Assembly: GCA_021648625.1 (NCBI GenBank)
Contig: JAKISK010000006.1
Coordinates: 1-41,249 of the forward strand
DNA length: 41,249 nt
Source of the DNA: Thiomicrorhabdus sp.
Lineage (GTDB): Bacteria > Pseudomonadota > Gammaproteobacteria > Thiomicrospirales > Thiomicrospiraceae
Direction: 5' to 3'
Position 1 is the stretch's first letter. The number at the start of each line of letters is the position of its first letter. The notes under the pieces were generated by a model, which had not been told where the DNA came from, did no database searches, and saw only the letters and a program-made list of their open reading frames with translations. A program made the position numbers and the translations under genes. Shown here piece after piece: positions 631 to 40,356 of this stretch.

Positions 631-659
631 ATCCCCCCCCCTCTATCAACTTAAGCAAC

Positions 660-1091
660 TTATGGCGTGTTTTTAGGCAGCGTTCTTTCTAGGGGCAAGC
701 GTAAATCAGCGGTGCTTTTAGGCGCGCGAAGGGTGCTTGAGTGCGTTGCATCGGCTGCAAAGAAGACCACTGCGCCACTGGTGATTTTGTAATGTTGTGC
801 AAAGGCGCGTCCATCAGGCAGTCCTAAGCTGGCAACTAAAAACTCCATTTGATCGCCATACTCTTCACGTAAAGGGGCGAGCAATTCCATGACCATCATG
901 CCACCTGCGGTATTAACATCATAAACCAATACCAAGGATGGCTGACCTTTGTTAATACGATCTAAATCGGTAGGGTAGGGGCTTTGCGGGAGTTGTGTCC
1001 AAATTAAAACGGCGGATAGGCCGAGAACGATAAAGTAGACTAATCCTTTTTTCCAGCGTGCAGTGGGGGCTTTAGGTTCCGTTTTGGTCAT
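660..1091 (-). CDS. Membrane-anchored thioredoxin-fold protein lacking CxxC
   Basis: A protein of 143 residues with one N-terminal membrane helix (about residues 15-33, GLVYFIVLGLSAVLIWTQL) followed by a domain with thioredoxin-like rhythm (QPSLVLVYDVNTAGG...MEFLVASLGLPDGRAFAQHYKITSGAVVFFAAD). The active-site CxxC of true thioredoxins is absent; there is no cysteine in the domain. The topology predicts a periplasmic domain. I chose the ATG at 1091 rather than the upstream in-frame ATG at 1130 because AAGGAAAA lies about 8 bases upstream of it. It converges on murJ. The function is unknown; a partner-holding or scaffolding thioredoxin fold is one possibility, but this is inference. Confidence 0.7.
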   Translation of the reverse strand: MTKTEPKAPTARWKKGLVYFIVLGLSAVLIWTQLPQSPYPTDLDRINKGQPSLVLVYDVNTAGGMMVMELLAPLREEYGDQMEFLVASLGLPDGRAFAQHYKITSGAVVFFAADATHSSTLRAPKSTADLRLPLERTLPKNTP

Positions 1092-1170
1092 GTTGTTTTC
1101 CTTGTTTTGGTTGTGATGCAGAGATCTCATTCTAACGATTTTTTAAATGTATTACGTACTTTTTATACCC

Positions 1171-1278
1171 GATCCCCCAGATAAAAAAACAAATTAGAGT
1201 GCAAGTAATTGATGTGCATAGTGAATTCAAAAAAGGCAAAGTGACTTTATTGGTGATGTTTTTTTTGAATTTGCTAGG
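1171..1278 (+). repeat. Interspersed repeat copy A with hairpin
   Basis: This aligns along its whole length with the reverse complement of 18088-18197 (copy B), with one 1-base and one 2-base gap. The best-conserved core is AATTAGAGTG-AAG-AATTGATGTGCATAGTGAAT. Distal to it is a hairpin with arms AATTCAAAAAA (1224-1234) and TTTTTTGAATT (1261-1271). No open reading frame spans it. It could be a MITE remnant, an IS end or a structured RNA. Confidence 0.8.
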
Positions 1279-1279
1279 G

Positions 1280-1509: not shown

Positions 1510-1537
1510 CTAGATAAAATTTGTATCGCTATTTTTC

Positions 1538-1572
1538 TTGACACGAGATTATTTGGGATTATAATCCCAAAT
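1538..1572 (+). promoter_or_regulatory. Consensus sigma-70 promoter with a 22-bp palindromic operator over the -10
   Basis: TTGACA at 1538-1543 and TATAAT at 1560-1565 are separated by 16 bases. A perfect 22-base palindrome (1551-1572, half-site ATTTGGGATTA) is centred on the -10 hexamer. It lies 50 bases upstream of the DUF5666 gene. A repressor bound there would block RNA polymerase; the regulator is not identified. Confidence 0.75.
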
Positions 1573-1622
1573 AGTAGTGATGATAGCTACGTTTTATTAT
1601 TTGAAATTTAAGGAAAATTACG

Positions 1623-2732: not shown

Positions 2733-2751
2733 GCTTACTTCTTATTTTTAT

Positions 2752-2793: not shown

Positions 2794-2886
2794 GTTTTTG
2801 CAATACTCCATTCATAAAGGGTTGGAGTGTCAACACTATTTCGTACCTAGATCACTTTCAATTTGAGCAATTTTATTTAACCTAAG

Positions 2887-3738: not shown

Positions 3739-5139
3739 TTATAAACCTAAACGCTGTGATTGCAGGGAGTTAAAGCATTGATCTGCTCCGTACTGTTGGC
3801 GAATGGTTTGAAAGGTCTCCCAGTTTGGGTAGCTTTGTTTAAACATTGCTTCACTCATTCGCGCATCTTTGGCCAAATAGAGTCGCCCGCCGTAGTGAAG
3901 TACCATTTCATCGAGCTTGTCTAAAAAAGCAAACAGGGTGGGGTCAATTTTAAAGTCGATGGCAAGGGTATAGCCTTCCATTGGAAAGCTTAAGTAGTTG
4001 GCATTTTCTGCCCCAAATACTTTCAGTACCGCTAAAAAAGAGCCACGTTTGGAGTTGACAATTTCAGTGAGTATTTTGGTGAGTCCTTCCAGCCCAGCGG
4101 CTTTGGGTAAAACAAACTGGTACTGGGTAAAGCCTTTTTTGCCATATAAACGATTCCAGTTTTGAATGCTGTCGAGCGGGTAAAAGTAGGGGGCGTAGTG
4201 TACTGCGCGCTGGCTCTCTTTTTGCCGTGTTTTATGGTAGTACAGAGTGTTAAACGCTTTAACGGTAAAAGCATTGAGTAGGGCGCTGGGCATGTTAAAC
4301 GGTACGTTCAGCTTACTGGGGGGGGCTGTTTTTAAGTTGTTTGCGTGCGTTTGTTCGGTGGCGTGTTCGCCGAGCATGAGCAAGGAGCGTCCGAGGTGTT
4401 TGCCTGTGGTTAAGCAGTCAATCCATGCCACGGAGTAGGTGGCATTTTGATGGGCTTCAAACTGTTCTAGGGTTTCGGCAAGGTTCTCGGTTTTCCATGT
4501 GGTCTCTTGAATAAACGCACTTTCAATCGGAATCAATTTAAGCGTGGCAGAGACGATAACGCCTGTTAATCCCATGCCGCCACAGGTGGCTAAAAAGAGT
4601 TCGCGGTGCTCGGTAAGTGAGCAAATAATGGATTCGCCTGAGGCTAAGCATAGGGTAATATTTAAAATATGTTGGCTAAAACAGCCGTCAAGGTGGTGAT
4701 TTTTGCCATGCACATCACTGGCGATAGCACCGCCAATGGTCACAAATTGCGTGCCTGGGGTGACGGGTAAAAACCAGCCTTTGGGCACAAATACATTGAG
4801 CAGTTCTGCCAAACTTACCCCTGCGGCACAGTGTACAACGCCTTGTGTTGCATCAAACGTTAAAAAGTGATTAAGGGTTTGGGTATGCAGGGTTTGCTCG
4901 GCAAGCGCACTGTCGCCATAGCTTCGTCTTAAACCACTGGCAATCAAAGAGGGGGGGGGGAGAATTTTTGGTTTGTTTTGTTGAAAGGTTTTAATTGCGG
5001 TAGAGATGTCTTGGGTGTGGCGTATCGTAAGGGGGCTGCTTTTGATGGTTGGGTAGTTGCCCCAGCCATTGAGGCGAGATGTATTTGCCGAGGGCTTACT
5101 TGAAGGCTCTTTATTTAAAGACTCATTACTTAAAGACAT
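3739..5139 (-). CDS. FAD-dependent oxidase, DprE1-like (polyprenylphosphoryl-ribose 2'-epimerase subunit)
   Basis: A 466-residue protein, close to mycobacterial DprE1 in length. The VAO/PCMH-type FAD domain shows GLRRSYGDSA (residues 69-78) and TPGTQFVTIGGAIASDVHGKNHH (127-149). The C-terminal substrate domain shows LSFPMEGYTLAIDF and GGRLYLAKDAR, with Lys424 matching DprE1 Lys418. At the place of DprE1 Cys387 this protein has Ala393; the 31-residue spacing to the lysine is the same. DprE1 oxidises C2' of polyprenylphosphoryl-ribose. The gene overlaps gtrA by 14 bases and precedes the DprE2-like gene. A run of ten G (4951-4960) encodes Leu-Pro-Pro-Pro just before the FAD motif and is a potential slippage site. 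The residue alignment to DprE1 is from memory. Confidence 0.85.
   Translation of the reverse strand: MSLSNESLNKEPSSKPSANTSRLNGWGNYPTIKSSPLTIRHTQDISTAIKTFQQNKPKILPPPSLIASGLRRSYGDSALAEQTLHTQTLNHFLTFDATQGVVHCAAGVSLAELLNVFVPKGWFLPVTPGTQFVTIGGAIASDVHGKNHHLDGCFSQHILNITLCLASGESIICSLTEHRELFLATCGGMGLTGVIVSATLKLIPIESAFIQETTWKTENLAETLEQFEAHQNATYSVAWIDCLTTGKHLGRSLLMLGEHATEQTHANNLKTAPPSKLNVPFNMPSALLNAFTVKAFNTLYYHKTRQKESQRAVHYAPYFYPLDSIQNWNRLYGKKGFTQYQFVLPKAAGLEGLTKILTEIVNSKRGSFLAVLKVFGAENANYLSFPMEGYTLAIDFKIDPTLFAFLDKLDEMVLHYGGRLYLAKDARMSEAMFKQSYPNWETFQTIRQQYGADQCFNSLQSQRLGL
4951..4960. repeat. Ten-base G homopolymer inside the DprE1-like gene
   Basis: Ten consecutive G on the plus strand (C on the coding strand), followed by AGAATTTTT. 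It encodes the Pro run at residues 61-63. In this sequence the gene is in frame; gain or loss of one base would truncate it early. Confidence 0.9.
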
Positions 5140-5566: not shown

Positions 5567-6463
5567 ATGAATTCTAACACTTCTCCCTCTCCTTCTATAG
5601 GGAATAAATCGGTATTGCTTGGGCTGTTTAAGTTGTCGCGGCCACGTCAGTGGATTAAAAATGGGTTTATTTTTGCCCCCCTTCTTTTTACGGGTCTTTT
5701 TTTAGACTGGCTGGCGATTAGCCAAACCCTTTGGGCGTTTGGATTGTTCTGTTTGGCCGCTTCGGCCACCTACATTGTTAACGATTTAAGAGACATTGAA
5801 GAGGATAGAAAACACCCCGTTAAATCCCTTAAAAGACCGCTGGCCTCAGGCGAAGTTACCCCGTTTCAAGCCAAAGTATTATTGGTTATTTTGTATGCGG
5901 TGCTGTTAGTTGGGTTTATGTTTCAGCCACAGATTATGATGATTATTGTGGCGTACTTGTTGTTAAATGTGGCGTACAGCTTTTATTTGAAGCATCAGCC
6001 TGTATTGGATATTTTTACTATCGCCTTTGGGTTTGTGTTGCGCGTGTATGCAGGGGCAACGGCCATATCCGTTCCCGTATCGTCTTGGATGTTTATCACA
6101 ACGTTATGTTTGGCGCTGTTTTTGGCGGCCATGAAACGCCGTCAAGAGCTCATGCAAACCTCGCAAGCAGGACGTAAGGTGTTGGCGTATTACACCGAGT
6201 CGTTGGTGAACCGTTATGCAGAGATGGCGGCCACGGGGGCGTTACTGTTTTACAGTTTGTTTGTGATGAACGCCCGCCCTGAGATGGTGTTTACCATTCC
6301 ATTTGTGCTGTTTGGTTTGTTTCGATATTGGTACATCAGCGAAATGCTGGGCGAGGGCGAATCGCCCACCGATGCACTGCTGGCGGATAAGCAGTTATTG
6401 TTTACGGTGATCGGTTGGATTGCGGTCTGCCTTTGGGCGCTTTGGCCTGCGGGGGCGGTGTAG
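5567..6463 (+). CDS. UbiA-family prenyltransferase, probable polyprenyl-phosphate 5-phosphoribosyltransferase
   Basis: A 298-residue polytopic protein of the UbiA superfamily. The first aspartate motif is NDLRDIEED (72-80) followed by RKHPVKSLKRPLASG; the second conserved site is YSFYLKHQPVLD (137-148). Both resemble the branch containing mycobacterial Rv3806c, which joins phosphoribosyl pyrophosphate to decaprenyl phosphate, rather than ubiquinone or heme prenyltransferases. The next gene begins immediately after its stop codon. It is divergent from gtrA/dprE1/dprE2. It would supply the substrate for the following phosphatase and the DprE pair. Assignment to the PRPP-using branch is well supported by neighbours. 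Confidence 0.85.
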   Translation: MNSNTSPSPSIGNKSVLLGLFKLSRPRQWIKNGFIFAPLLFTGLFLDWLAISQTLWAFGLFCLAASATYIVNDLRDIEEDRKHPVKSLKRPLASGEVTPFQAKVLLVILYAVLLVGFMFQPQIMMIIVAYLLLNVAYSFYLKHQPVLDIFTIAFGFVLRVYAGATAISVPVSSWMFITTLCLALFLAAMKRRQELMQTSQAGRKVLAYYTESLVNRYAEMAATGALLFYSLFVMNARPEMVFTIPFVLFGLFRYWYISEMLGEGESPTDALLADKQLLFTVIGWIAVCLWALWPAGAV

Positions 6464-10968: not shown

Positions 10969-11054
10969 TATGAGTTATGTTTTTCAATAAAACAGAGCTT
11001 GAATTCAAATTATAAAATCCCCCCCCCTTCTTTCTAGGTATATTTTTAATTTCT

Positions 11055-12647
11055 ATGAATACAAACATCAATACACCCTCTTTTTTTACAGCCTTAACCA
11101 CCTTTTGGGCAGAATGCTCATGGCATGAGAAGGTGTTGTTGCTGGCGTTTATGCTGTTAAAGCTGGTGCTGGTGTTTCAGGTGCCTTTAACGGGCGATGA
11201 GGCCTATTTTATTCTTTGGGGGCAGTCGCTGGAGTTGGGGTATTACGATCATCCGCCCACGGTGGGCTGGGTGTTGTATGTGCTGAATGGATTTGGCACG
11301 GGGGTGGGCGATCATCTGTTGGTCTATCGTTCGTTTGCTTATGTTGCCGCCCTTGTGATTGCGTATTTGTTGGTTCAAACCTTGCAGTTTTATCCGAACA
11401 TTCAATCCAAAACCGCTTTTTATGTGGCGTTTGCCTTTTTAGTCTCGCCCATTTCGTTGATGTTTGTGGTGACCGCCAATGATACCGTTTTGGTCTTTTT
11501 TGCGGTGGTGGCGTTCTATTTTTACGCCAAGGCATTGGCAAAACCGACCTTGTTAAATGCGCTGTTAGCGGGGGTATTTTTAGGGTTGGCGTTTTTGTCT
11601 AAATACTTTGCGGCGTTTATGTTGATCGGGTTGTTTTTATACAGCCTGATTTATATACGTCAATATGGTTGGAAATTGTTGGCGGTGATGAGCGCGGTGA
11701 TTTTGTTGTTTGTGGCGGAAAACCTCTATTTTAATGCTACGAATTGCTGGAATAATATTCTGTTTAATTTCTTTTCCCGAACCACAGGCAGCCAGTTTGA
11801 AATAGGCAATGTGCTTTCGTATTTGGTGATGATTTTGGCGTTGTTGTCTCCGTTAGGGGTGTTTTACTGGATTAAATCGTTTAAAAAAGATCAAGATTCT
11901 ACCGCGAAAGAAAATTTTACCCCCCCCCTATTAAAGCAGGTGTTGTTTGCTACGGTACCGTTGTTGTTGATATTGTTGTTGGTGAGCTTTACCAATCCGG
12001 TCGGCTTGCACTGGCCACTGTTGTCCGTAACCTTGTTGTACCTTCTGTATGTTCGACTCTCGCCCGAGCGGTTACGCAAGCTGGTTTTATTTAATGGGTA
12101 CAGCGCGTTGGTGTTGGGAGCGGTTTTATTGTTGGCGTTATCACGGGTGAATCAGTTGGTTCCAGCGTCGCAAAAACACCATGTGGCGGTCTACACTCAG
12201 CCTGAAAAAGTGTGCGCACAACTGCCTAAAGGAAGGGTGTTTACCTTGGGGTACAGTTCACAAGCGGTGCTGTCGTATCATTGTCAAAATGATGAAATTC
12301 ATGTGTTTATGAGTACCTCTAAATTTGGCCGTGAGGACGATAAAAAAACCAATTTTAAGGCGATGGATGGGCAGGCCTTAACCCTTTTTGTACCGCATAA
12401 AAAAGAGCTTAAAAAATTACAACCGTTTTTTTCCAGTCTACAAATTAAGCCATTTAAGGTGGGTGAGGGGGTCACGTATTATAGGGTGACAGGACAAAAC
12501 TTTGATTACGATACCTATCGAGAAAAGATATTAACCGTGGTGAACGAACAGTTTTATACCCCCCCCGAGTGGTTTCCTAAGATAGCCGAGTGGTTAGGTG
12601 TTGAGGGGTGTGGGTTTAAAACTCAGTATGGGTTTAAGGAGGAATAG
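11055..12647 (+). CDS. GT39/ArnT-like integral membrane glycosyltransferase (candidate D-arabinofuranosyltransferase)
   Basis: A 530-residue protein with about ten hydrophobic helices. The N-terminal catalytic loop is GDEAYFILWGQSLELGYYDHPP (acidic pair Asp48-Glu49), typical of GT-C enzymes of the PMT_2/ArnT type that take sugars from polyprenyl phosphate on the periplasmic side. The C-terminal ~190 residues are soluble. It would naturally follow the UbiA-DUF212 pair if the PHP-ATPase/AlbA cassette were removed, so it may use the polyprenyl-phosphate-arabinose made here; the acceptor (pilin, LPS or other) cannot be read. C-runs of 9 (11920-11928) and 8 (12559-12566) bases lie in the coding sequence. 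The ATG has no strong Shine-Dalgarno. Confidence 0.83.
   Translation: MNTNINTPSFFTALTTFWAECSWHEKVLLLAFMLLKLVLVFQVPLTGDEAYFILWGQSLELGYYDHPPTVGWVLYVLNGFGTGVGDHLLVYRSFAYVAALVIAYLLVQTLQFYPNIQSKTAFYVAFAFLVSPISLMFVVTANDTVLVFFAVVAFYFYAKALAKPTLLNALLAGVFLGLAFLSKYFAAFMLIGLFLYSLIYIRQYGWKLLAVMSAVILLFVAENLYFNATNCWNNILFNFFSRTTGSQFEIGNVLSYLVMILALLSPLGVFYWIKSFKKDQDSTAKENFTPPLLKQVLFATVPLLLILLLVSFTNPVGLHWPLLSVTLLYLLYVRLSPERLRKLVLFNGYSALVLGAVLLLALSRVNQLVPASQKHHVAVYTQPEKVCAQLPKGRVFTLGYSSQAVLSYHCQNDEIHVFMSTSKFGREDDKKTNFKAMDGQALTLFVPHKKELKKLQPFFSSLQIKPFKVGEGVTYYRVTGQNFDYDTYREKILTVVNEQFYTPPEWFPKIAEWLGVEGCGFKTQYGFKEE
11915..11928. repeat. G/C homopolymer motif inside the glycosyltransferase gene
   Basis: ATTTTAC followed by C (nine C at 11920-11928); on the minus strand this is nine G followed by TAAAATTTTC. 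It matches the recurrent motif of this window and is a potential slippage site about midway in the gene. Confidence 0.85.
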
Positions 12648-12663
12648 GGGGGGGGTAAAATTT
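12647..12663 (+). repeat. G-tract motif overlapping a stop codon
   Basis: Nine G (12647-12655) begin with the last base of the TAG stop codon and are followed by TAAAATTT. This is the clearest intergenic example of the recurrent G(6-10)TAAAATTT motif. Confidence 0.85.
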
Positions 12664-13350: not shown

Positions 13351-13491
13351 GACGGTTTCTCTTTTTTAGGATTGATATTTAACCCAATAGTAAGGGTTAC
13401 TTTGGCTAAATACAAGTGGGTTAAGAGTGTTGTCATCTTTGCTTGAGACAGTGTTTTTTAAATTTTACCCCCCCTCCTTTCTTTATCATTT

Positions 13492-14850: not shown

Positions 14851-14941
14851 GTTTATTACCTGAACAAAGGATTAACGTAGTGTTCTATTGTAGCAGGAGA
14901 AGGGGGTGAGAAAGGAGAGAGAGGGGGGGGAGAAATTTTAA

Positions 14942-19518: not shown

Positions 19519-20163
19519 ATGGCGGGGCGGATAACGTTAAAAATAGGCACGAGTGGCTGGGAGCATGATGGGTGGTTAGGTGGGTTTTACCCTGATGATT
19601 TACCAGTGTCTTGGCGGCTAGATTATTTTAGTAATGCGTTTAATGTTGTGTTGGTTCCTCAGCAAGCTTGGCTGGCTTGGTCTCAAGCGACGATGCAAGC
19701 GATTGCTGAAAGCGTGGAAAGTGATTTTGGTTTTTATTTTGCGCTTCACAATGAGCTGGAGGGGGGGGTAAAAAATGAAAAAACAGTGCGGCAACTTAGG
19801 TTGATTTTGTCGATTTTAGGGTCGAGTGTGTTAGGGTTTGTGGTTTGGAGTGAAAAAGCGTTTACATTGTCTACGTTGTTGCAACAACCGGTTACGCTTG
19901 TTTCGACTCAGCACCGTTTGCAAGGTTGGTCGTGGCAAAATGAGGGTCTTTGGTTATCGGGCAACCCTTTGGGGTTTGTGTCGAGGTTACCTAAAGAGGG
20001 CAAAGCGCAGGTTAAGTTGTTGACGGGGTTTGTTGAGAGTCTGTCGGATGTTAAATTAGACCGTTCTGATATACTTCCCGTTGCCTTTATTGTGGGTGGA
20101 GATTTAGTGGATATACAGCAAACGGCAAATTTGAAAACCATTGGTGAGCTGTTGGGGTATTAA
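19519..20163 (+). CDS. Short DUF72-family protein
   Basis: A 214-residue protein opening with the DUF72 signature: KIGTSGWEHDGWLGGFYPDDLPVSWRLDYFSNAFNVV. Typical DUF72 proteins (YecE-like TIM barrels) are about 240-290 residues with VE..sfY...pt after this point; here the central and C-terminal parts are shortened and divergent, and the Glu of the usual 'VE' reads LV. A run of eight G (19761-19768) encodes Gly-Gly with the flanking motif GGGTAAAAA. It is the first gene upstream of mlaF with a 19-base gap. Biochemical role unknown; the enzyme site may be lost. Confidence 0.75.
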   Translation: MAGRITLKIGTSGWEHDGWLGGFYPDDLPVSWRLDYFSNAFNVVLVPQQAWLAWSQATMQAIAESVESDFGFYFALHNELEGGVKNEKTVRQLRLILSILGSSVLGFVVWSEKAFTLSTLLQQPVTLVSTQHRLQGWSWQNEGLWLSGNPLGFVSRLPKEGKAQVKLLTGFVESLSDVKLDRSDILPVAFIVGGDLVDIQQTANLKTIGELLGY

Positions 20164-23007: not shown

Positions 23008-23298
23008 GTGACGAATTTAGAATGGAATGAAAGCACTTGCACGATTACACTGCCGAGTGATGTAACGCTTGAAGCGCTTTCAGGCTTGCTTAAGGTAAAA
23101 AAAGTATTGAGCTACCCTGTAAGCGTGGTTGATTTCAGTGCCGTTGAGCAAGTGGACAGCGCCGTATTGGCTTTGTTGTTGGTTTGGTCTAAAAACTCCC
23201 CCCCCCCTATTCAAGTACTTAATGTGCCTGATGAGTTGTTAGGTTTGATACGGCTTTATGATTTAGAAAATGTGATCTTAGTAAAGTCGTTAATCTGA
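23008..23298 (+). CDS. mlaB: STAS-domain protein MlaB
   Basis: A 96-residue single STAS domain with the regulatory loop VVDFSAVEQVDSAVLALLLVWSK. MlaB binds MlaF and stabilises the transporter. It starts at GTG after AAGG. Ten C (23198-23207) encode Ser-Pro-Pro-Pro in a loop near residue 66, and nine more C lie 23 bases past the stop. It is the last gene of the mla operon. Confidence 0.92.
   Translation: MTNLEWNESTCTITLPSDVTLEALSGLLKVKKVLSYPVSVVDFSAVEQVDSAVLALLLVWSKNSPPPIQVLNVPDELLGLIRLYDLENVILVKSLI
23198..23207. repeat. Ten-base C homopolymer inside mlaB
   Basis: Ten C in frame with Pro codons. A single-base slip would replace the last third of MlaB. A second run of nine C occurs at 23321-23329 in the spacer downstream. 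Confidence 0.9.
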
Positions 23299-23391: not shown

Positions 23392-24324
23392 ATGTCTAAT
23401 GTTCCCGCCGTGCGATTTCAGCACGTTAAAAAACAATATGGTGAATTATCTGCATTAAAGGGCATCTCGTTTGATGTTGAAGAGGGTGCCTTTTTTGGAT
23501 TGTTAGGCCCTAATGGTGCAGGAAAATCGACCTTAATTAATGCCATGTCTGGGTTGGTGATCCCAACGTCGGGCAGTATTGAGATTCAAGGGCACGATGT
23601 GATTGCCGATTATCGACAAACAAGGCGTTTATTGGGGCTAGTGCCGCAAGAGTTGATTGCCGATCCATTTTTTTCCATTCGAGAGTTGCTGGATTTGCAG
23701 TCTGGCTATTTTGGCCTTAAGGGGGCGAAGCAACGTGCTTGGGTGGGTGAATTATTAGAGCGTTTGGCATTGTCGGATAAGTCGGATTCAAATACGGGAC
23801 AGCTATCGGGCGGAATGAAACGGCGCGTATTGATTGCGATGGCGCTTGTTCACCGTCCACGTGTTTTGGTGTTGGATGAACCTACCGCAGGTGTGGATGT
23901 GGATCTGCGCCGAACGCTTTGGGATTTTACCAAAGAGCTGCACCAACAAGGCCATACCATTATTTTGACCACTCATTACTTGGAAGAGGCCGAGGCGCTA
24001 TGCGATAAGGTCGCAATTATGCAAGGGGGCGAGGTTAAAGCGCTGGACACGACTCAATCGTTGTTATCAAAACACAGCTATCGTTACTTAAGAGTCACGT
24101 TGGCACAGCCTGCACACACCTTAACACCACCGCTTGAAGCGCGTTTGGTTGAGCGTGAGCCAAACGGACTGGTGTTTAAGCTAGAAAAAAACATGTCACT
24201 TTCTCAATTGTTGGCTTGGTTGGGTGAGGCTAAATTGGAGATAGAGGACATCAGCAGTCGTGATGCTTCGTTGGAAGAGGTGTTTTTAGATTTAACGGCG
24301 GAGGGCAGGTCGAATGCAAAGTAA
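23392..24324 (+). CDS. ABC transporter ATP-binding protein (YadG-like)
   Basis: A 310-residue ABC-2 type ATPase. Walker A GPNGAGKST, signature LSGGMKRRVLIAMAL, Walker B VLVLDEPTAGVDVDLRR and the switch region ILTTHYLEEAEALCDKV are intact, with an extra C-terminal domain of about 90 residues typical of the YadG/DrrA branch. It overlaps the permease gene by 11 bases and forms an exporter with it. The substrate is not known. In Escherichia coli ibaG follows mlaB directly; here this pair lies between them. Confidence 0.92.
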   Translation: MSNVPAVRFQHVKKQYGELSALKGISFDVEEGAFFGLLGPNGAGKSTLINAMSGLVIPTSGSIEIQGHDVIADYRQTRRLLGLVPQELIADPFFSIRELLDLQSGYFGLKGAKQRAWVGELLERLALSDKSDSNTGQLSGGMKRRVLIAMALVHRPRVLVLDEPTAGVDVDLRRTLWDFTKELHQQGHTIILTTHYLEEAEALCDKVAIMQGGEVKALDTTQSLLSKHSYRYLRVTLAQPAHTLTPPLEARLVEREPNGLVFKLEKNMSLSQLLAWLGEAKLEIEDISSRDASLEEVFLDLTAEGRSNAK

Positions 24325-25081
24325 TTGGGCGGGTTGTTGGGCGCTTTTTATTAAGGAGGTACGACGTTTTTATTCGGTCGTGGTGCAGACGGTGTTTGCA
24401 CCAATCGTGGCAACACTTTTATATTTATTAGTGTTTGGTCATGTGCTGGAAACTAAAATAGAGACGTATGCCTCGGTCAGCTACAGCCAATTTTTAATTC
24501 CTGGTTTGGTCATGATGGCGATTTTGCAAAATGCATTTTCAAACACCTCTTCGAGCTTGATTCAATCCAAAATGCACGGTAATTTATCGTTTGTGTTGTT
24601 AAGTCCTATCTCTGCCTTTGAATTTTATGTGGCATTTGTATTGGCATCGGTGGTTCGGGGCGTTGTTGTGGGGGGGGGGATTTTAATTATTGGCGTGATT
24701 GGATTTGATTTGACTTGGCAGTCGCCTTTTTGGGTGTTGATTTTTGCCATATTAAGCGCCGCAATGATGGGGGGGCTTGGCGTGTTAGCGGGTATTATCT
24801 CGGATAAATATGATCATTTGTCGGCATTTCAAAACTTTGTGATTATGCCATTGACCTTTTTGAGTGGCGTATTTTATTCCATTCATGCCTTGCCTGAATT
24901 TTGGCAGCAACTGTCGTACTTTAACCCTTTCTTTTATATGGTTGATGGCTTTCGATATGGCTTTTTTGAGCAGTCGGATGTTTCGGTCTATTTAAGTCTA
25001 TTGGTAACCATTGTGTTTTTAATCATCGTCTCTTCGATAAATCTGATTTTATTGCGCAAAGGCGTTAAAATACGCCAATAA
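24314..25081 (+). CDS. ABC-2 type transporter permease (YadH-like)
   Basis: A 255-residue protein with six hydrophobic helices and the ABC-2 signature near the C-terminus (FVIMPLTFLSGVFYSIHALPEFWQQLSYFNPFFYMVDGFRYGF). It pairs with the preceding ATPase, with which it overlaps by 11 bases. A run of ten G (24670-24679) encodes three glycines in the third helix (VVVGGGILII). Confidence 0.93.
   Translation: MQSNWAGCWALFIKEVRRFYSVVVQTVFAPIVATLLYLLVFGHVLETKIETYASVSYSQFLIPGLVMMAILQNAFSNTSSSLIQSKMHGNLSFVLLSPISAFEFYVAFVLASVVRGVVVGGGILIIGVIGFDLTWQSPFWVLIFAILSAAMMGGLGVLAGIISDKYDHLSAFQNFVIMPLTFLSGVFYSIHALPEFWQQLSYFNPFFYMVDGFRYGFFEQSDVSVYLSLLVTIVFLIIVSSINLILLRKGVKIRQ
24670..24679. repeat. Ten-base G homopolymer inside the ABC permease gene
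   Basis: Ten G followed by ATTTTAATT, in frame as Gly codons within a membrane helix. A potential frameshift site. Confidence 0.9.
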
Positions 25082-28683: not shown

Positions 28684-29424
28684 GTGAAGCGAACAGAGTT
28701 AGTTAATTACTTAAATGATTTTTTAGACGTAGAGCAATATAAAGACTACGCCCCCAATGGTTTGCAGGTTGAAGGTTCGTCTGACGTAAATGTGATTGTG
28801 ACGGGGGTTACCGCTTGTCAGGCGTTGATTGATAAGGCGATTGAGTTGAATGCGAACGCTATTTTAGTGCATCACGGCTATTTTTGGAAAAATGAGCCAC
28901 TCCCCATTGTGGGCATTAAACAAAAGCGCATTAAAAAATTGCTTTTGCATGATATTAACTTGTTGGGGTATCACTTGCCTTTGGATGGGCATATCGAGCT
29001 TGGAAATAACGCTCAGCTTGGAAAGCTATGGCAGTTAGAAGATATTACGCCAAAGCCTGGATTGCTTCGTTTAGGACGCTTACAAGAGTCAGTTTTCGTA
29101 GAAAATTTTAAAGATAAGGTCTCTGCTTCTTTAGACCGAGAGGTGTTGCATTTATGGGGGGGGGCAAAAAAAGTTCAAAAAATTGCGTGGTGCAGTGGCG
29201 GTGCACAACAGTATATTACCGAGGCCGCTGCATGGGGAGCGGATGTATATATTAGTGGCGAAGTGTCTGAGCAAACAACACACTTGGCTCAAGAGCTGGG
29301 AATTCATTATTTTGCAGCAGGGCATCATGCAACGGAGCGTTTAGGGGTTAAGTGTTTGGGCGAAATGTTAGCGAAAAACTTTGATGTGATGCATTATTAT
29401 GTTGATATTGAAAACCCTGTTTAA
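28684..29424 (+). CDS. Nif3/YbgI-family metal-binding protein
   Basis: A 246-residue NIF3 family protein. Metal-site motifs are LVHHGYFWK (His63-His64), YHLPLDGH (His97, Asp101, His103) and the C-terminal HHATERLGVK. It starts at GTG with GGGAGT eight bases upstream. Family members are annotated as GTP cyclohydrolase 1 type 2 homologues but the true role is not settled. It lies between the hisD terminator and petA. Nine G (29156-29164) encode Trp-Gly-Gly around residue 158. Confidence 0.92.
   Translation: MKRTELVNYLNDFLDVEQYKDYAPNGLQVEGSSDVNVIVTGVTACQALIDKAIELNANAILVHHGYFWKNEPLPIVGIKQKRIKKLLLHDINLLGYHLPLDGHIELGNNAQLGKLWQLEDITPKPGLLRLGRLQESVFVENFKDKVSASLDREVLHLWGGAKKVQKIAWCSGGAQQYITEAAAWGADVYISGEVSEQTTHLAQELGIHYFAAGHHATERLGVKCLGEMLAKNFDVMHYYVDIENPV
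29156..29164. repeat. Nine-base G homopolymer inside the Nif3 gene
   Basis: Nine G in frame, followed by CAAAAAAAG. A slip would remove the C-terminal metal ligands. Confidence 0.9.
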
Positions 29425-30234: not shown

Positions 30235-31475
30235 TGTCGAATCAAACGAATGAATCATCTTCAGAAAAATCATCTTTATTAGGTTGGTTTGACGAACGTT
30301 ATCCTGTTTCGAGTACGTGGAACAAGCACGTTGGTCAATATTACGCGCCTAAAAACTTTAATTTTTGGTACTTTTTTGGCTCGTTAGCCTTGATTGTTCT
30401 AGTCAATCAAATTGTAACGGGTATTTGGTTAACCATGAGTTATCAACCCAGTGGTGAACTTGCATTTAGCTCGGTAGAGTACATTATGCGAGATGTTGAG
30501 TGGGGTTGGTTGTTGCGATACTTGCACTCAACAGGTGCTTCTGCCTTCTTTATTGTTATCTATTTTCATATGATGCGAGCCCTGCTTTACGGCTCTTATA
30601 AAAAACCACGCGAGTTAGTTTGGGTCATTGGAATGTTGCTCTTCTTAGTGTTAATGGCTGAAGCCTTTATGGGGTATTTGTTGCCCTGGGGTCAAATGTC
30701 CTTTTGGGGTGCTCAGGTAATCATCTCTTTGTTTGGCGCCATTCCAGTAATTGGTCCTGATTTAGCCTTATGGATTCGTGGCGATTATGTTATTTCTGAA
30801 GTAACGTTAAACCGTTTCTTTGCCTTGCACGTTATTGCTCTGCCATTGGTCTTGGTTATTTTAGTCTTCATGCACTTGGTGGCATTGCATCATGTTGGGT
30901 CAAACAATCCCGACGGTGTTGAGATTAAAAAGCTAAAAGATACGAACGGCATTCCATTAGACGGTATTCGTTTTCACCCGTACTATTCGGTGAAAGATGC
31001 GATGGGTGCGGTGTTCTTCTTTATTCTGTTTGCATTGGTTCTGTTCTATGCGCCAGAAGGGGGGGGATATTTTATTGAAGCGCCTAACTTTGAACCCGCA
31101 AATCCACTTAAAACGCCCGATCATATCGTTCCTGTTTGGTACTTTACGCCCTTCTATGCCATTTTAAGAGCGATACCTGATAAGTTTTTAGGGGTGGTTG
31201 CAATGGGTGCGGCGGTCGTGATCTTGTTTGCTATGCCGTGGCTCGATCGTTGTAAAGTTAAGTCGATTCGTTATCGTGGTAATTCCTATAAAGTGTTGTT
31301 AACCATATTGGTGATTAGCTTCTTTGTTTTAGGGTTTTTAGGAACACAGCCATCTACGCCGCTTTATACGAAATTGGCGCAAATTTTTACGGCCTTATAT
31401 TTTATGTTCTTCTTGGTGCTGCCATTTACCTCGGCAAATGAAAAAACCAAACCTGTTCCAGAAAGGGTGACCTAA
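30234..31475 (+). CDS. petB: Cytochrome b subunit of the bc1 complex
   Basis: A 413-residue bacterial-type cytochrome b with eight helices. Heme-ligand histidines lie in RYLHSTGASAFFIVIYFHMMR and RFFALHVIALPLVLVILVFMHLVALH. The quinol-oxidation loop has WGAQVI, and PVWYFTPFYAILRAIPDK gives the P-[ED/F]-W-Y motif, here PVWYF. It follows petA with a one-base overlap and precedes petC directly. Eight G (31059-31066) encode Gly-Gly in a loop. Confidence 0.97.
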   Translation: MSNQTNESSSEKSSLLGWFDERYPVSSTWNKHVGQYYAPKNFNFWYFFGSLALIVLVNQIVTGIWLTMSYQPSGELAFSSVEYIMRDVEWGWLLRYLHSTGASAFFIVIYFHMMRALLYGSYKKPRELVWVIGMLLFLVLMAEAFMGYLLPWGQMSFWGAQVIISLFGAIPVIGPDLALWIRGDYVISEVTLNRFFALHVIALPLVLVILVFMHLVALHHVGSNNPDGVEIKKLKDTNGIPLDGIRFHPYYSVKDAMGAVFFFILFALVLFYAPEGGGYFIEAPNFEPANPLKTPDHIVPVWYFTPFYAILRAIPDKFLGVVAMGAAVVILFAMPWLDRCKVKSIRYRGNSYKVLLTILVISFFVLGFLGTQPSTPLYTKLAQIFTALYFMFFLVLPFTSANEKTKPVPERVT

Positions 31476-33815: not shown

Positions 33816-35195
33816 ATGGCAAAAGTAAAATCTGCCTATGTCTGCACCGATTGCGGTGCCGACCATTCACAGTGGCAAGGTCAATGCGCGGTGTGCAGTG
33901 CTTGGAATACCCTGCAAGAGATTAAACTGAGTTCAGGTAAAGGCAGTGCGATTCCTGTTGTACCCACCGCATCTGCAAAAGGGTATTCGGGCGCGGTTGA
34001 GGCCAAGGTCAAAAATATTTCCGATGTCAATCTTGCGGAAGTCCCCCGAATTTCATCCAGTATGAAAGAGCTGGATCGCGTGTTGGGCGGCGGCATTGTA
34101 CCCGGGTCGGTCGTGTTGATTGGCGGAGACCCTGGTGTCGGAAAATCGTCCATCTTATTGCAGGTGATGTGTCAGCTAAGCACCGAATACAATGTGCTGT
34201 ATGTAACGGGGGAGGAATCTTTACAGCAAGTGGCATTGCGAGCCAAGCGAATGCAGTTACCCGATGAGAAGTTACGGCTTTTAACAGAGACGGACGTTGA
34301 ACTGATTGCACATGCCGCCTTAGCAGAGTCGCCTAAAATTATGGTGGTTGATTCCATTCAAACCATGCAGTTGGCAGAGGTTTCGGGTGCGGCGGGCGGT
34401 GTGTCTCAGGTACGGGAGTCGGCGGCTTTTTTAACACGCTTTGCCAAACAAAATAACATCGCCATTTTTTTAGTCGGTCATGTCACCAAGTCGGGAGAGG
34501 TGGCGGGGCCACGCGTGTTAGAGCACATTGTGGATACCGTCATTTTTTTAGAAGGTCAATCCGACAGTCGGTTTAGAACCCTGCGTGCCATTAAAAATCG
34601 CTTTGGCGCAGTGAATGAACTCGGTGTTTTTGCGATGACCGACAAAGGCATGAAGCAAATTAAAAACCCTTCCGCCATTTTTCTATCGCGTGGCGAAGAC
34701 GTTTCTTCAGGCTCGGTGGTGATGGTCGTCTGGGAAGGCTCTCGTCCTTTGTTAGTTGAGATACAGGCCTTGGTCGATGATTCACTTTTTGGCGCACCCA
34801 AGCGCGTGATGGTCGGGTTGGATCAAAACCGTATCGCAATGCTACTGGCGGTCATGCATCGTCATGGAGGCATTCAAGCGAGTGATCAAGATGTGTACGT
34901 CAATGTGGTAGGGGGGGTAAAAATTACCGAAACTTCAGCCGATTTAGCCGTTTTATCGGCTATTTTATCCAGTATGCGAGATCAACCATTGTCTCAAGAG
35001 TTGATTGTGTTTGGCGAAGTGGGGTTGGCAGGTGAAATTAGACCCGTACCCAGTGGTCAAGAACGCTTGTTTGAAGCCGCAAAACATGGCTTTAAACGTG
35101 CGATTGTGCCGATAGGGAATGTGCCTAAAAATGGCATTCCCAATATGGAGGTTATTGGTGTAAAGAGCTTGCAGCAAGCGTTGGATGTGCTTTGA
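33816..35195 (+). CDS. radA: DNA repair protein RadA
   Basis: A 459-residue protein with the full RadA layout: N-terminal zinc finger (CTDCGADHSQWQGQCAVCSAW), RecA-type ATPase with Walker A GGDPGVGKSS and Walker B IMVVDSIQT, the RadA motif KNRFG, and a C-terminal Lon-protease-like domain (VNVVGGVKITETSADLAVLSAILSS, without the catalytic Ser-Lys pair). RadA is a branch-migration helicase in recombination. Seven G followed by TAAAAATTACC (34911-34927) encode VGGVKIT. Confidence 0.96.
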   Translation: MAKVKSAYVCTDCGADHSQWQGQCAVCSAWNTLQEIKLSSGKGSAIPVVPTASAKGYSGAVEAKVKNISDVNLAEVPRISSSMKELDRVLGGGIVPGSVVLIGGDPGVGKSSILLQVMCQLSTEYNVLYVTGEESLQQVALRAKRMQLPDEKLRLLTETDVELIAHAALAESPKIMVVDSIQTMQLAEVSGAAGGVSQVRESAAFLTRFAKQNNIAIFLVGHVTKSGEVAGPRVLEHIVDTVIFLEGQSDSRFRTLRAIKNRFGAVNELGVFAMTDKGMKQIKNPSAIFLSRGEDVSSGSVVMVVWEGSRPLLVEIQALVDDSLFGAPKRVMVGLDQNRIAMLLAVMHRHGGIQASDQDVYVNVVGGVKITETSADLAVLSAILSSMRDQPLSQELIVFGEVGLAGEIRPVPSGQERLFEAAKHGFKRAIVPIGNVPKNGIPNMEVIGVKSLQQALDVL

Positions 35196-36574: not shown

Positions 36575-36612
36575 AAAATGCCTGTTTAGAGTCCCTAAAC
36601 AGGCATTTTTTT
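36575..36612. terminator. Bidirectional terminator between fadL-like and doxX genes
   Basis: AAAAATGCCTGTTTAG pairs perfectly with CTAAACAGGCATTTTT around AGTCC; A and T runs on both sides allow it to act in both directions. Its right edge touches the doxX stop codon. Confidence 0.9.
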
Positions 36613-37207
36613 ATGGCATGCAACGTTTACGAACCCAATAATCCACACTGATAAATTTACCCCCCCCTAATATAAACAGTGCAAACAGCATAATAAGGTA
36701 GGTGGCCGCCCATTCAATGCCGTTGTTGCTTGCAATTAAACTGCCGTGTTCGGTAAGCCAGTCGTAATTTCCGTGGGTTTGTAAAAGTTCTTTGGATTTT
36801 TCAAGCCTCTCAAGGGCGCTTGCCGTATTTTCAGATGCCCAAGGCGACATTAAATCATGAACCGCTTGCCAACCATTTTGCCAATGCACACTGGTCATGG
36901 CGACAACCATGGTAATCATTAATGGAATGGTTGCCCAGCGTGTGGCAAAGCCAAAGAGCAGTAAGATGGCACCACCCACTTCGGCGGATGTGGCTAAAAA
37001 GGCAAGTAACTCTGGAAAAGGAAGGCCAAGCCCCCACTGTTCGTTGCCAAACCAAGCCACCGTGTCATCGAACGAGTTGGCTTTATTCATGCCTGCAATC
37101 CAAAAAACAGGCACTAAGTAAAGGCGTAAGGCGAGTGATGCAACGCTGGAAAGCGATTGAACGCTTGTGTCCATGAGCTGTTGAAGCTTGATGATTAGGG
37201 TTTTCAT
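36611..37207 (-). CDS. DoxX-family membrane protein
   Basis: A 198-residue protein with four hydrophobic helices and the DoxX pattern: LALRLYLVPVFWIAGMNKANSFDDTVAWF, ELLAFLATSAEVGGAILLLFGFATRWATIPLM. DoxX proteins are linked to quinone-dependent thiosulfate or redox processes in some species, but most are uncharacterised. It has about 70 extra residues between helices 3 and 4. Eight C on the plus strand (36660-36667) give Gly-Gly-Gly-Lys near its C-terminus. Confidence 0.85.
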   Translation of the reverse strand: MKTLIIKLQQLMDTSVQSLSSVASLALRLYLVPVFWIAGMNKANSFDDTVAWFGNEQWGLGLPFPELLAFLATSAEVGGAILLLFGFATRWATIPLMITMVVAMTSVHWQNGWQAVHDLMSPWASENTASALERLEKSKELLQTHGNYDWLTEHGSLIASNNGIEWAATYLIMLFALFILGGGKFISVDYWVRKRCMP

Positions 37208-37285
37208 TGTTAAACCTTGTTTATTTAAAGAGGGTGCTATGAAGACCTGTTCTTAATGCGTTTTATTACAAGGGGGGTAAAAATT

Positions 37286-38098
37286 TTAATTTTGTAAAAA
37301 ATCGTTCCACTCTTTAAATAGCTCTGGTGTGGTGGCGGCCACCGCAGAACGTTTTTCGACTTTAGCGAGCAGTACGGTTTGTTGGTCTAGGGTTTGGCTT
37401 TGTCCGCCAGCCTCTTCTAAGATTAACCAGCCTGCGGCGTAGTCCCAAATGTTTTGTGAGCCGTGTAAATATACTTGACCGCGACCTGCGGCAATCCAAC
37501 ACCAATCGAGAGCAACGGAGCCAAAACTGCGTTGAGAGGCGTAAGGGGCTTGGGTGGCTAAGCGAATGGCAAGGTCGGGCTGTAGGCGCTTAAAATCCAC
37601 AATGCTACTGCATTGGCTTAAGGCCGTTTTAGCAGTTTTGGCCGTGAAGGGTTGGTGATTGAGCTCTGCGCCCATGTTTTGTCGGGCGGCAAAGAGTTCA
37701 TCGCGTGAGGGATCATAAACCAGACCTGCAATAATGTTACCTTGTACCGTAAGCGCCAGCGATACGGTATAAACAGGAATGCCAATGGCAAAGTTACTGG
37801 TACCGTCTACGGGGTCTAAAATCCAGCACCCTTGTTTGCTGTTCATGGCCTTTTCTTGCGCCTCCGTTGAAGACTCTTCGCCTAAAAATGCAAATTCAGG
37901 CCAGTTTTTAGCTAAAAAGGATTGGGTTTTTAGCTGCATTTGGGTATCGGCTTCTGTTAAAAGCGAGCCATCTTGTTTGGTTTCAACGCTCACATTTTCA
38001 AACCGAGCAAGCACTTCTGTTTTGGCAAGTTGAATGATGCCACTTTTTAGGCGTTGCCAGTTGGCTTCTTGAATAAAAGGGTTATTGCTCATGTTCAT
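37286..38098 (-). CDS. Inositol monophosphatase family protein (SuhB/CysQ-like)
   Basis: A protein of about 270 residues. The metal-site motifs are GEESS, WILDPVDGTSNFAIGIP and WDYAAGWLILEEAGG. Such enzymes hydrolyse inositol-1-phosphate, PAP or fructose-1,6-bisphosphate; which one cannot be decided from sequence. Its start overlaps the end of the CorC-like gene. I chose the ATG at 38098; ATG at 38092 or GTG at 38119 are alternatives. Six G followed by TAAAAATTTT (plus strand 37272) lie nine bases past its stop. Confidence 0.88.
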   Translation of the reverse strand: MNMSNNPFIQEANWQRLKSGIIQLAKTEVLARFENVSVETKQDGSLLTEADTQMQLKTQSFLAKNWPEFAFLGEESSTEAQEKAMNSKQGCWILDPVDGTSNFAIGIPVYTVSLALTVQGNIIAGLVYDPSRDELFAARQNMGAELNHQPFTAKTAKTALSQCSSIVDFKRLQPDLAIRLATQAPYASQRSFGSVALDWCWIAAGRGQVYLHGSQNIWDYAAGWLILEEAGGQSQTLDQQTVLLAKVEKRSAVAATTPELFKEWNDFLQN

Positions 38099-39383
38099 TG
38101 CTACGCTTTTGTGGTTCACTAATTTTGGTCAATTTAACGGATTGAATGGCGTTGTCAGAGGTTTTGATTACTTCCAAAATATAGGGGCCTACTTTAATGC
38201 AGGTACCTGTTGTTGGAAGCGTTTCCAGTTCTTCTTGAATGAGTCCATTAAGGGTTTTTGGCCCATCGGTTGGCAGGTTTAGGTTGTACTCTTTATTGAG
38301 GTCACGAATAAACTCAAGTGCATCAATGGTCATGGAGCCGTCATCGTTCAGTGCCACACTGTCGGTTTCAGGTTTGGCTTTGGAATCGGTTGAAAGTTTG
38401 CCAACAATCTCTTCCAGCAAATCTTCCATAGAAAGTAAGCCTTGTAGGTCACCGTATTCATCAACAATACAGGCCATTCGGCGTTTGTTCTCATTAAACT
38501 TCCTCAATTGAACGCTTAAGGAGGTGCACTCAGGTACAAAATAAGCGGGTCGTGCCAGTTTAATGATGTCTTTTAGTGAGGCATCTTTGTGCATGAGTAA
38601 GGGAAGCGCACGGCGTAAATTTAACACACCAACAAGATCTTCATCCAGCGATCCACGATAAAGCGGTATGCGGGTATAAGGTGATTTTTCAATGGCTTTT
38701 AGAATGTCTTCAATCGGTTGTGTGACATCCACAGCATAGATGTCTTGTTTAGGAATCATGACATCTTCTACGGTAACGGTTTCGAGTTTTAATACACTGG
38801 AAAGCATGTCTCGGTAGTGTTTAGGCAGTTGATGCGTTGCTTCATCAATGAGCGTTTGCAGTTCTTCATGGGACAGCGAGTGTTGATCGCCGTTGTGTTG
38901 GGTGTTAACACCAAACAGGCGTAAGAGGCCATTGGCAAAAAAGTTAACCAGCCAGACAATGGGGGAAAAAATTTTAAGCAGTGGCGTTAAAATAAATGCC
39001 GCTGGATAAGCAATTTTTTCAGGATAAAGTGCCGCAAGTGTTTTTGGCGCAACTTCTGCAAACACTAAAATAACCAGTGTGAGCAACCCAGCGGCAAGGG
39101 CGATTCCTGCTTCACCAATCAGTTTCATGGCGATGATGGTGGCAATGGAGGAGGCAAAAATATTGACGAAATTGTTGCCAAGTAAAATCACACCGAGCAA
39201 GCGATCGGGCTTTTCAAGTAATTTTTGTGCTTTTATTGCGCCTTTATGTCCAGACTTGGCTTGATGCTTTAACCGATAACGATTAAGCGCCATCATGCTG
39301 GTTTCTGAGCTAGAAAATAGGGCGGAAAGAATAATAAGAAGGGCTAAAATGCCAAATAGGATAGATATATCGAGCGAGTTCAA
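38082..39383 (-). CDS. CorC/HlyC-type CNNM transporter-like protein
   Basis: A 433-residue protein with an N-terminal DUF21 (CNNM) membrane domain (ALFSSSETSMMALNRYRLKHQAKSGHKGA, then three or four helices), paired CBS domains (TVEDVMIPKQDIYAVDV; RRMACIVDEYGDLQGLLSMEDLLEEIVGKL), and a C-terminal CorC_HlyC domain (ALEFIRDLNKEYNLNLPTDGPKTLNGLIQEELETLP). The family is linked to Mg2+/Co2+ efflux. In many gammaproteobacteria it lies with a CcsA-like gene next to ffh, as here. Confidence 0.93.
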   Translation of the reverse strand: MNSLDISILFGILALLIILSALFSSSETSMMALNRYRLKHQAKSGHKGAIKAQKLLEKPDRLLGVILLGNNFVNIFASSIATIIAMKLIGEAGIALAAGLLTLVILVFAEVAPKTLAALYPEKIAYPAAFILTPLLKIFSPIVWLVNFFANGLLRLFGVNTQHNGDQHSLSHEELQTLIDEATHQLPKHYRDMLSSVLKLETVTVEDVMIPKQDIYAVDVTQPIEDILKAIEKSPYTRIPLYRGSLDEDLVGVLNLRRALPLLMHKDASLKDIIKLARPAYFVPECTSLSVQLRKFNENKRRMACIVDEYGDLQGLLSMEDLLEEIVGKLSTDSKAKPETDSVALNDDGSMTIDALEFIRDLNKEYNLNLPTDGPKTLNGLIQEELETLPTTGTCIKVGPYILEVIKTSDNAIQSVKLTKISEPQKRSNEHEQ

Positions 39384-39555
39384 GGCAGTCTTTTTTGATT
39401 ATGAATGAACTGCGAATTATAACGGTTTATGAGGATTGAAAATAGTCTAAGGTGATTATCTTAATGGTTTATCTTCTGTAACGGTTTAACAAGCCTTTAA
39501 AAAGGCTGATGTAATGTTGAAAATAATAATTTTAGCACTTAGTTTAGTACCCAGA

Positions 39556-40356
39556 TTAGTATCCTAGTGAGGACAAAATAATGCTGGTTCCAATAAAGCT
39601 TAGTACCAGTAAAACGTAAGCCCAAATGGTGTATCGAGCCGCTTTTTTGCCACGCCAGCCGTACTTAAAGTGACCAAATAAAAAGGCACCATAAACCAAC
39701 CAAGACAGAATGGCGAGAAAGGTTTTATGAATTAAGTGTTGTGCAAAGAGGTCTTCTATAAAAAAGACACCGCTTAATAAGGCAAAGCTTAAAAAGATAA
39801 AGCCGATTATTACGAGCTGTATAAGTGTGGTTTCCATTACCTGCAAGGGAGGCAGAGCTTTCATAAGGCGGGAGAGTTTCTTTTTACGAAACAGGAGCTC
39901 TTGTCTGCCGTATAAAATGGCCTGTGCGGTTGCAATGCCCATGATGCTGTAAGCCGCAATGGATATCAGTACGTGAATGCCCAGTGTAAAAGGTAGGGGG
40001 GTAAAATTATTCATGAAAATAGGCAGCAATACCGTGAGCGCGGCTAAGGGGTAGACAAATATTCCCAGCATTTCGGTGTTTTTATTAATGCAGGTGATCA
40101 ATAAAATGGCACTGCCCAAAAGTGCCACCAAGGATAGACCATTTCCCATGTTGAAGTGAATCGCTTGATCGCCCCATAAGGTAATGCTTAGCGCAAAGGC
40201 ATGCACCAGCGTTGCGATTAAGGCCAGTTTAATCACGTTAGGGCGAATGTTGCTGTCGGTGTTCCCTTGTATTTTTTGCCAAATAAGGCGGCTGGCCAAT
40301 AAATATAAAAGACTGGCTAGTAAAGCACTCGATACACTGATGAACATAAAAACCAA
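39556..40356 (-). CDS. CcsA/YpjD-type cytochrome c assembly family protein
   Basis: A 266-residue polytopic protein of the HemX/CcsA type. Conserved histidines in helix ends are visible in LVHAFALSITLWG, PFTLGIHVLISIAAYSIMG and FLFGHFKYGWRGKKAARYTIWAY. The usual WGxxWxWD motif of full CcsA is not seen, which fits the shorter YpjD branch whose exact role is unsettled. It is divergent from ffh, an arrangement common in proteobacteria. Six G plus TAAAATTATTC (39996-40012) encode NNFTPLP. Confidence 0.9.
   Translation of the reverse strand: MVFMFISVSSALLASLLYLLASRLIWQKIQGNTDSNIRPNVIKLALIATLVHAFALSITLWGDQAIHFNMGNGLSLVALLGSAILLITCINKNTEMLGIFVYPLAALTVLLPIFMNNFTPLPFTLGIHVLISIAAYSIMGIATAQAILYGRQELLFRKKKLSRLMKALPPLQVMETTLIQLVIIGFIFLSFALLSGVFFIEDLFAQHLIHKTFLAILSWLVYGAFLFGHFKYGWRGKKAARYTIWAYVLLVLSFIGTSIILSSLGY

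Follow-up and report, generated by a model that had tools for sequence, protein, structure and literature searches.

Sites in the window

Contig JAKISK010000006.1 of the Thiomicrorhabdus sp. assembly GCA_021648625.1 is 41,249 nucleotides long, and we refer to this whole stretch as the window. (The assembly, G000 below, contains 1.92 Mb and is about 80% complete; the window is its contig C91.) Scattered across the window, in genes and spacers and in both orientations, are copies of a word that combines a run of G with an A/T tract directly 3' of the run. An initial annotation of the window had noticed the runs and left open whether protein binding, replication, or a mutational process accounts for them. 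The evidence now points to an uptake-signal-type word for the recognition of self DNA. By analogy with known uptake words, we infer that this dispersed word probably has that function.

In total, 28 runs of G or C in the window reach a length of 6 bases or more, and all 14 runs in the initial annotation were located where it had placed them. The sites are given below by the coordinates of the run and the strand. Genes are greedy longest open reading frames (ORFs), called with no trained gene finder, and descriptions of the form "ABC-transporter-like" were assigned by eye.

633..641, minus strand: G9 + ATTTATTC, intergenic
4951..4960, plus strand: G10 + AGAATTTT, antisense within ORF 3739-5139
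5676..5681, minus strand: G6 + CAAAAATA, antisense within ORF 5567-6463; a weak, short-core copy, absent from the initial annotation
11019..11027, minus strand: G9 + ATTTTATA, intergenic
11920..11928, minus strand: G9 + TAAAATTT, antisense within ORF 11055-12647
12559..12566, minus strand: G8 + TATAAAAC, antisense within ORF 11055-12647; absent from the initial annotation
12647..12655, plus strand: G9 + TAAAATTT, begins at the final base of ORF 11055-12647
13468..13474, minus strand: G7 + TAAAATTT, intergenic
14923..14930, plus strand: G8 + AGAAATTTT, intergenic
19761..19768, plus strand: G8 + TAAAAAAT, sense, ORF 19519-20163
23198..23207, minus strand: G10 + AGTTTTTA, antisense, short ORF 23008-23298; absent from the initial annotation
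24670..24679, plus strand: G10 + ATTTTAAT, sense, ORF 24314-25081 (ABC-transporter-like)
29156..29164, plus strand: G9 + CAAAAAAA, sense, ORF 28684-29424; a substitution relative to G015 and G028; absent from the initial annotation
31059..31066, plus strand: G8 + ATATTTTA, sense, cytochrome b-like gene (EGGGYFI)
34911..34917, plus strand: G7 + TAAAAATT, sense, RadA-like gene (VVGGVKI)
36660..36667, minus strand: G8 + TAAATTTA, sense, ORF 36611-37207 (LGGGKFI)
37272..37277, plus strand: G6 + TAAAAATTTT, intergenic; a short-core copy
39996..40001, plus strand: G6 + TAAAATTA, antisense, ORF 39556-40356; a short-core copy

The flank is looser than was first described. A shared A/T tract, with As first and Ts last, holds up as the general rule, but the exact TAAAATT follows only four of the 14 runs (11920, 12647, 13468, and 39996), and AGAAATTTT follows a single one (14923). 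Across all 28 runs, the next 8 bases include at least 7 A/T for 18 runs, 6 for another 6 runs, and 5 or fewer for the remaining 4 (22228, 24769, 32805, and 32988). If up to one mismatch is allowed, then GGGGGGGWRAAAWTT matches the window 9 times, at 8 sites (two of the matches overlap, at 37271-37286), versus 0.09 expected from shuffles. None of 100 dinucleotide shuffles of the window reached 9 matches.

Some of the sites in genes can be compared directly to other genomes. The orthologs of 24670..24679 in two motif-free relatives, G015 and G028, lack the run and align without gaps. The runs at 31059..31066 and 34911..34917 are also present in the motif-bearing genomes G017, G012, and G001, and the latter run is a synonymous or near-synonymous change.

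A glutamate-synthase-like gene has, at 32648-32993, four G/C runs with 4-6 A/T in the 8 bases downstream. Those that were compared in relatives were mostly lost, and the run at 32648 was present in G001. They look like chance runs of Gly or Pro codons.

Genome-wide counts and taxonomic spread

Most of our counts are from a 430 kb sample of G000, which comprises the window and 20 other stretches. Since 19 of these 20 came from contigs that were known beforehand, most of them chosen for motif matches, densities in the sample are biased upward. (The stretches from G017, G012, G001, G023, and G029 were likewise from known contigs and were mostly chosen for motif matches.) Whole-genome counts are unaffected: AGGGGGGGTAAAATT, with up to one mismatch, is found at 54 places in the assembly, and the reversed pattern is found at none. 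We estimate that G000 has between about 520 copies of the word (scaled by whole-genome pattern matches) and about 720 copies (unscaled).

The lengths of the G-runs are bimodal, with a second peak at 8. The 430 kb include 307 runs of length 5; 89 of length 6; 59, 71, 48, and 27 of lengths 7-10; and just 1, 2, and 1 of lengths 11, 12, and 13. From an order-3 Markov model fitted to these same sequences, 45, 14, 4.4, and 1.4 runs are expected at lengths 7-10, so the suspicion of an excess over background composition was justified. A-runs have no second peak.

The consensus of the word is A-G(7-10)-[TA][AG]AAAWTTTT. Among 207 runs of length 7-12, the preceding base is A in 77%, A/T predominates from +1 to +8 (with As leading and Ts at the end), and conservation is near zero from +9 on. 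The consensus is alike in spacers and at coding sites of either orientation, and is weakest at the sense sites. The enrichment of the flank persists once we condition on G-runs. At least 7 of the 8 bases downstream are A/T for 11-14% of G2-G5 runs, and this share climbs to 28, 54, 80, 90, and 93% for G6 through G10. The corresponding upstream share stays at 12-19%, save for 31% at G9. In the motif-free G015, the downstream share does not rise with run length.

Perfect copies are commoner than interrupted ones. The G000 sample has 160 uninterrupted runs of 7-12 with the tract, versus 27 tract-bearing copies of G8 that have a single interruption inside, but mismatches at the ends of the run are uncounted among the interrupted copies, so the two classes are not strictly alike. 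In G017, we found 13 interrupted copies. Interrupted copies of G8 whose tract lies on the wrong side number 16 in G000 and 6 in G017.

The word is limited to a few genomes. GGGGGGGTAAAATT is present in 6 of 58 genomes, including G000, and 26 genomes from the same genus lack it. Similarly, GGGGGGGWRAAAWTTT has exact matches in 6 of 62 genomes from the family (72 in G000, 66 in G012, 41 in G017, 38 in G023, 34 in G001, and 25 in G029) and none in the other 56. As a control, the reversed GGGGGGGWRAAAWTTT has 1 match in G000, 2 each in G023, G029, G012, and G017, and 1 in G008. Elsewhere in the class, 5 of 368 other genomes have single matches, and 16 viral contigs have one match each. Also, in 400 kb from each of the motif-free G015 and G028, we found 7 and 21 runs of at least 7, and the A/T tract accompanies 0 and 2 of these, respectively.

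In a tree of RadA, the six motif-bearing genomes group together in a single clade with 99/97 support, recovered in 98% of 200 bootstrap trees, and this clade adjoins the motif-free G006 and G028. The tree has 34 rows and leaves out three genomes of the same genus: G007 and G010 (no full RadA was found) and G031 (split frame). As a tree of one gene, it gives limited support for the relationships among species.

Another genome from the class, G237, has 24 copies of the reversed pattern. Stretches from it (for example, L292:3342-3540 and L297:27) contain the repeat CCCCCC-TTTTTTAAA-GGGGGG-CA-GGGGGG, which is apparently a dispersed element.

Origin, retention, and placement of the sites

Alignments of the coding sites to motif-free relatives indicate that the sites arose mainly by base substitution and not by insertion. 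For G015, we considered the 61 of 251 coding sites whose ortholog in the sample is at least 45% identical, and we included runs with and without the tract; 49 of the 61 are ungapped. For G028, we considered 59 sites with at least 6 of 8 A/T and an ortholog of at least 60% identity; 53 are ungapped, and among these 53, the residues are identical for 16 and have one change for 10. (In these comparisons and in the comparisons of retention, the same site can recur across several species.) Conserved Gly-Gly or Pro-Pro codons are typically rewritten, as in VVGGVK from the RadA-like protein or EGGGYF from the cytochrome b-like protein. NFTPPPKVDS from an RsmA-like protein is another rewritten site. 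At some other sites, the residues changed.

Whether a run is kept within the clade depends on its flank. Among orthologs from the clade, a run of at least 7 was kept in 86 of 110 comparisons if it had the tract, in 6 of 12 if 6 of the 8 bases were A/T, and in 2 of 21 if 5 or fewer were. (The comparisons are directed, with each species pair considered both ways, so kept sites are counted twice.) GGG or CCC codons were unchanged in 60 of 84 cases inside the motif versus 410 of 871 outside it, where codons from one site are not independent. The contrast between runs with and without the tract, together with the retention of codons, implies from the alignments that core and tract are maintained as a unit. 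The view that a specific word, flank included, is at work rather than chance was borne out, as runs that have the tract are retained across species far more frequently than runs that lack it.

A mutational process, which was another of the original suggestions, is not supported as the main cause. Mutational bias or slippage could produce G-runs in a G-skewed genome, and GGG and CCC codons are commoner in G000 than in G015. But the run lengths have a peak at 8 and drop off sharply beyond 10, tract-less runs are seldom kept, and the differences between orthologous coding runs with the tract are substitutions, gaps being present in 2 of 110 comparisons. Because indels are few and retention depends on the flank, we rejected slippage or mutation bias as the main cause, and of the explanations that we considered, this one has the least credibility, which is to say almost none.

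Most sites lie in genes, and they are denser in spacers. The G000 sample has 209 runs of 7-12, and 142 of them are within ORFs (80 sense and 62 antisense), but genes have 0.37 runs per kb and the DNA outside them has 1.60, or about 4-fold more. Among spacers in G000, the density of sites is highest in the convergent ones (18 sites in 4.2 kb, versus 40 in 27.2 kb of tandem spacers and 6 in 9.3 kb of divergent spacers). Within genes, antisense sites lean towards the first fifth (23 of 76, p = 0.08).

Close pairs of sites in G000 are mostly facing: 21 are G..C, 4 are C..G, 1 is G..G, and 1 is C..C. Gaps of under 60 bases are in excess (18 versus about 7 expected), and spacing is otherwise near random. 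For the 24 G..C pairs from G000 and G017, there is a stop codon within 120 nt upstream in 19 strand views, and 11 of these have a T-rich tail. Three facing pairs that we folded gave -22 to -24 kcal/mol (z = -1.8 to -2.8), so facing pairs are predicted to form terminator-like hairpins.

The facing pairs would also fit a small mobile repeat that spreads the word by insertion, such as a repetitive extragenic palindrome (REP), a miniature inverted-repeat transposable element (MITE), or a terminator cassette. Several of the pairs share a central TTTGGATTGCAAATTT-like loop, and in G000 the loop words are near a run in 3 of 5, 3 of 5, 3 of 6, 1 of 1, and 1 of 10 cases; the G/C-run repeat in G237 also has the look of a dispersed element. 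However, most coding sites are ungapped relative to the motif-free relatives, and the loop words are rare, with 1-10 copies each in 430 kb. We consider a mobile repeat to be very improbable as the source of the word. The ungapped alignments rule out a mobile element for most of the coding sites, and they pertain to coding sites only. A few of the pairs in spacers could be cassettes.

Several long-loop facing pairs have a central stretch resembling TTTGGATTGCAAATTTTTA between the G-runs. This center could represent either a small cassette or a second element that is recognised. These pairs are at:

L092:14432
L092:15158
L095:19463
L101:1661
L102:639
L106:4316

A role in replication was also among the original suggestions. 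In E. coli, Chi and the FtsK orienting polar sequences (KOPS) are short, G-rich, and polar, as is this word, and a Chi-like recombination signal (for RecBCD or AddAB) or a KOPS-like polar signal might be expected to favor one strand. Indeed, 153 of 234 motif sites (65%) are on the G-rich strand. (The leading strand was inferred from GC skew only, and stretches with weak skew were left out.) But plain G3, G4, G5, and G6 runs are on this strand 63, 69, 71, and 70% of the time, so the orientation of the motif is no more biased than background, and a polar role in replication is not supported. We rejected an orientation of the Chi or KOPS type because the raw bias of 153:81 is no larger than for plain G4-G6 runs. 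Such signals also predict neither facing pairs at gene ends nor a required A/T tract, whereas retention of this word goes with the tract, and the word is restricted to one clade and GGGGGGGTAAAATT is missing from 26 genomes of the same genus. We consider a Chi-like or KOPS-like signal to be quite improbable.

A candidate uptake word

What we observe is a clade-specific and maintained word, born mostly by substitution, that joins a G-run to an A/T tract and that resembles the uptake signal sequence (USS) of Pasteurellaceae in its anatomy and distribution. We propose that cells of the motif clade take up free DNA by means of a receptor at the cell surface that has a preference for the G-run core and is probably pilin-like. 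The A/T tract would ease kinking or melting at entry, ComEC would import one strand, and DprA and RecA would recombine that strand. The word would accumulate because fragments that carry it are taken up and recombined more often (molecular drive by biased uptake), and it would mark the DNA of kin.

According to Helsem et al. 2025 (PMC12616744), only two families are known to discriminate DNA in this way. Among the matches listed from the open-licence literature, there was no report on uptake words in this bacterial family. We lean, by a modest margin, towards a third uptake-sequence system that evolved independently, outside Neisseriaceae and Pasteurellaceae, and that has a homopolymer G core. 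If this is correct, then the implied receptor reads a G-run plus an A/T tract, and the system arose once inside a single genus, so that its birth could be traced by comparing sister species that have the word with those that lack it. A young third case with motif-free sisters would bear on how uptake words begin, on whether drive alone is sufficient, and on which receptor change initiates them.

The likeness to USS (core AAGTGCGGT or ACAAGCGGT) is broad. Both words have many copies on both strands, are mostly genic but denser in spacers, are shared across a clade, were made by substitution, have few one-off copies, and form facing terminator-like pairs. In the parts of PMC1626085 that describe the USS of H. 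influenzae, 65% are coding, yet there is a preference for non-coding DNA; there is no significant orientation bias; close pairs are oppositely oriented; and perfect copies far outnumber one-off copies. The same parts trace the origin of USS to substitution, from alignments with gaps in 24% of 474. Segment 2 of USS lies just 3' of the core, and its first bases are usually As and its final 3 or 4 bases are Ts (PMC1626085), which matches the G-containing core and A-then-T tract described here. USS pairs are described as terminators, most frequent tail to tail, in the relevant part of PMC1852404. The differences are that our word has an uninterrupted core of G7-10 with variable length instead of a 9-nt core that contains GCGG, and that its density is about a third of one per kb. 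Also, Van Passel 2008 (PMC2346458) describes the sites in Pasteurellaceae genes as biased towards gene ends and as being in excess in the reverse-complement orientation, whereas in our case the sense orientation is commoner in genes and there is no significant bias to gene ends.

As for the DNA uptake sequence (DUS) of Neisseriaceae (GCCGTCTGAA, with receptor ComP), it is also dispersed in both orientations and has paired copies at gene ends. Its sequence is unrelated to our word, and it is described, in the part of the literature that we draw on, as having no flanking motif.

We also searched the genomes for transformation genes. We found ComEC (PF03772) in 5 of the 6 motif-bearing genomes, and the one in G017 matches the ComEC/Rec2 equivalog model; DprA was found in all 6. 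Each of these genomes has 5-10 matches to N_methyl. Part of these are within a type II secretion operon (model-checked in G023), and pseudopilins similar to the type II ones of G023 are found in the other genomes. The motif-free G015 has an MSHA-type pilus locus. Searches with PF16732, PF12019, PF05137, and N_methyl, along with clustering of 71 pilin-like ORFs, yielded no pilin family that is specific to the clade.

Two pilin loci are worth describing. In G000, contig C71 (L255) has a cluster of very large pilin-like proteins (270-489 amino acids) with relatives in G015; by eye, its neighbors are an O-antigen-ligase-like protein, a histidine kinase, and a response regulator. This cluster is a place to look for the receptor. 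In G017, contig C306 (L259) has a pair of pilins beside a PriA-like ORF (by eye), and these cluster with no other pilins. This contig is possibly contamination.

Several results weigh against an uptake word. ComEC was not found in G000 itself, which is about 80% complete, and neither ComEC nor DprA tracks the motif, since both occur in motif-free relatives. PilN (PF05137) was found in 0 of 12 genomes (PilB, PilT, and PilQ were not searched genome-wide), and neither GspH/FimT (PF12019) nor ComP_DUS (PF16732), the family of the DUS receptor, was found in any of the 6 motif-bearing genomes. The core is a homopolymer of variable length, whereas the cores of USS and DUS are fixed, and there is almost no information beyond +8, so there is no second A/T segment like segment 3 of USS. 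The spacing of USS is said to be more regular than random, but the spacing of this word is not (coefficient of variation 1.05, n = 240 gaps, from short stretches with pairs included). The bias in position within genes is not significant (Kolmogorov-Smirnov p = 0.76 for sense and 0.08 for antisense). G017, with a smaller sample, has few pairs, and neither orientation predominates among them (3 G..C and 2 C..G). Among the coding sites, 12 of 61 have a gap relative to G015, as do 6 of 59 relative to G028, and a G9 run followed by an A/T tract is also present at the site in the cytochrome b-like gene of G028, a motif-free sister.

The word could instead be the binding site of an intracellular DNA-maintenance protein (a nucleoid organiser, or a repair or segregation factor) that is kept by ordinary selection at many places. 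Word-specific retention and a polar consensus would fit any protein site, and neither a receptor nor the pilus families that we searched for were found. However, this explanation does not sit well with so many copies, in both orientations and inside unrelated conserved genes; with perfect copies exceeding interrupted ones; with an orientation bias that is not above background; or with a single clade that has motif-free sisters. Also, according to PMC1626085, so strong a consensus is typical of uptake sequences and unlike the sites of regulatory proteins. We consider a maintenance-protein site to be unlikely.

As for the other contents of the window, there was no match to Rfam at the gathering threshold, and an ORF at 1623-2732 that encodes a secreted-looking protein of 369 amino acids had no match in NCBIfam. 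The large ORF at 6995-9673 matches the model for TrlF family AAA-like ATPases (NF045780). In a scan with the cytochrome b-like protein, the closest named relative among the matches listed was from a Piscirickettsiaceae metagenome-assembled genome, at 75% identity.

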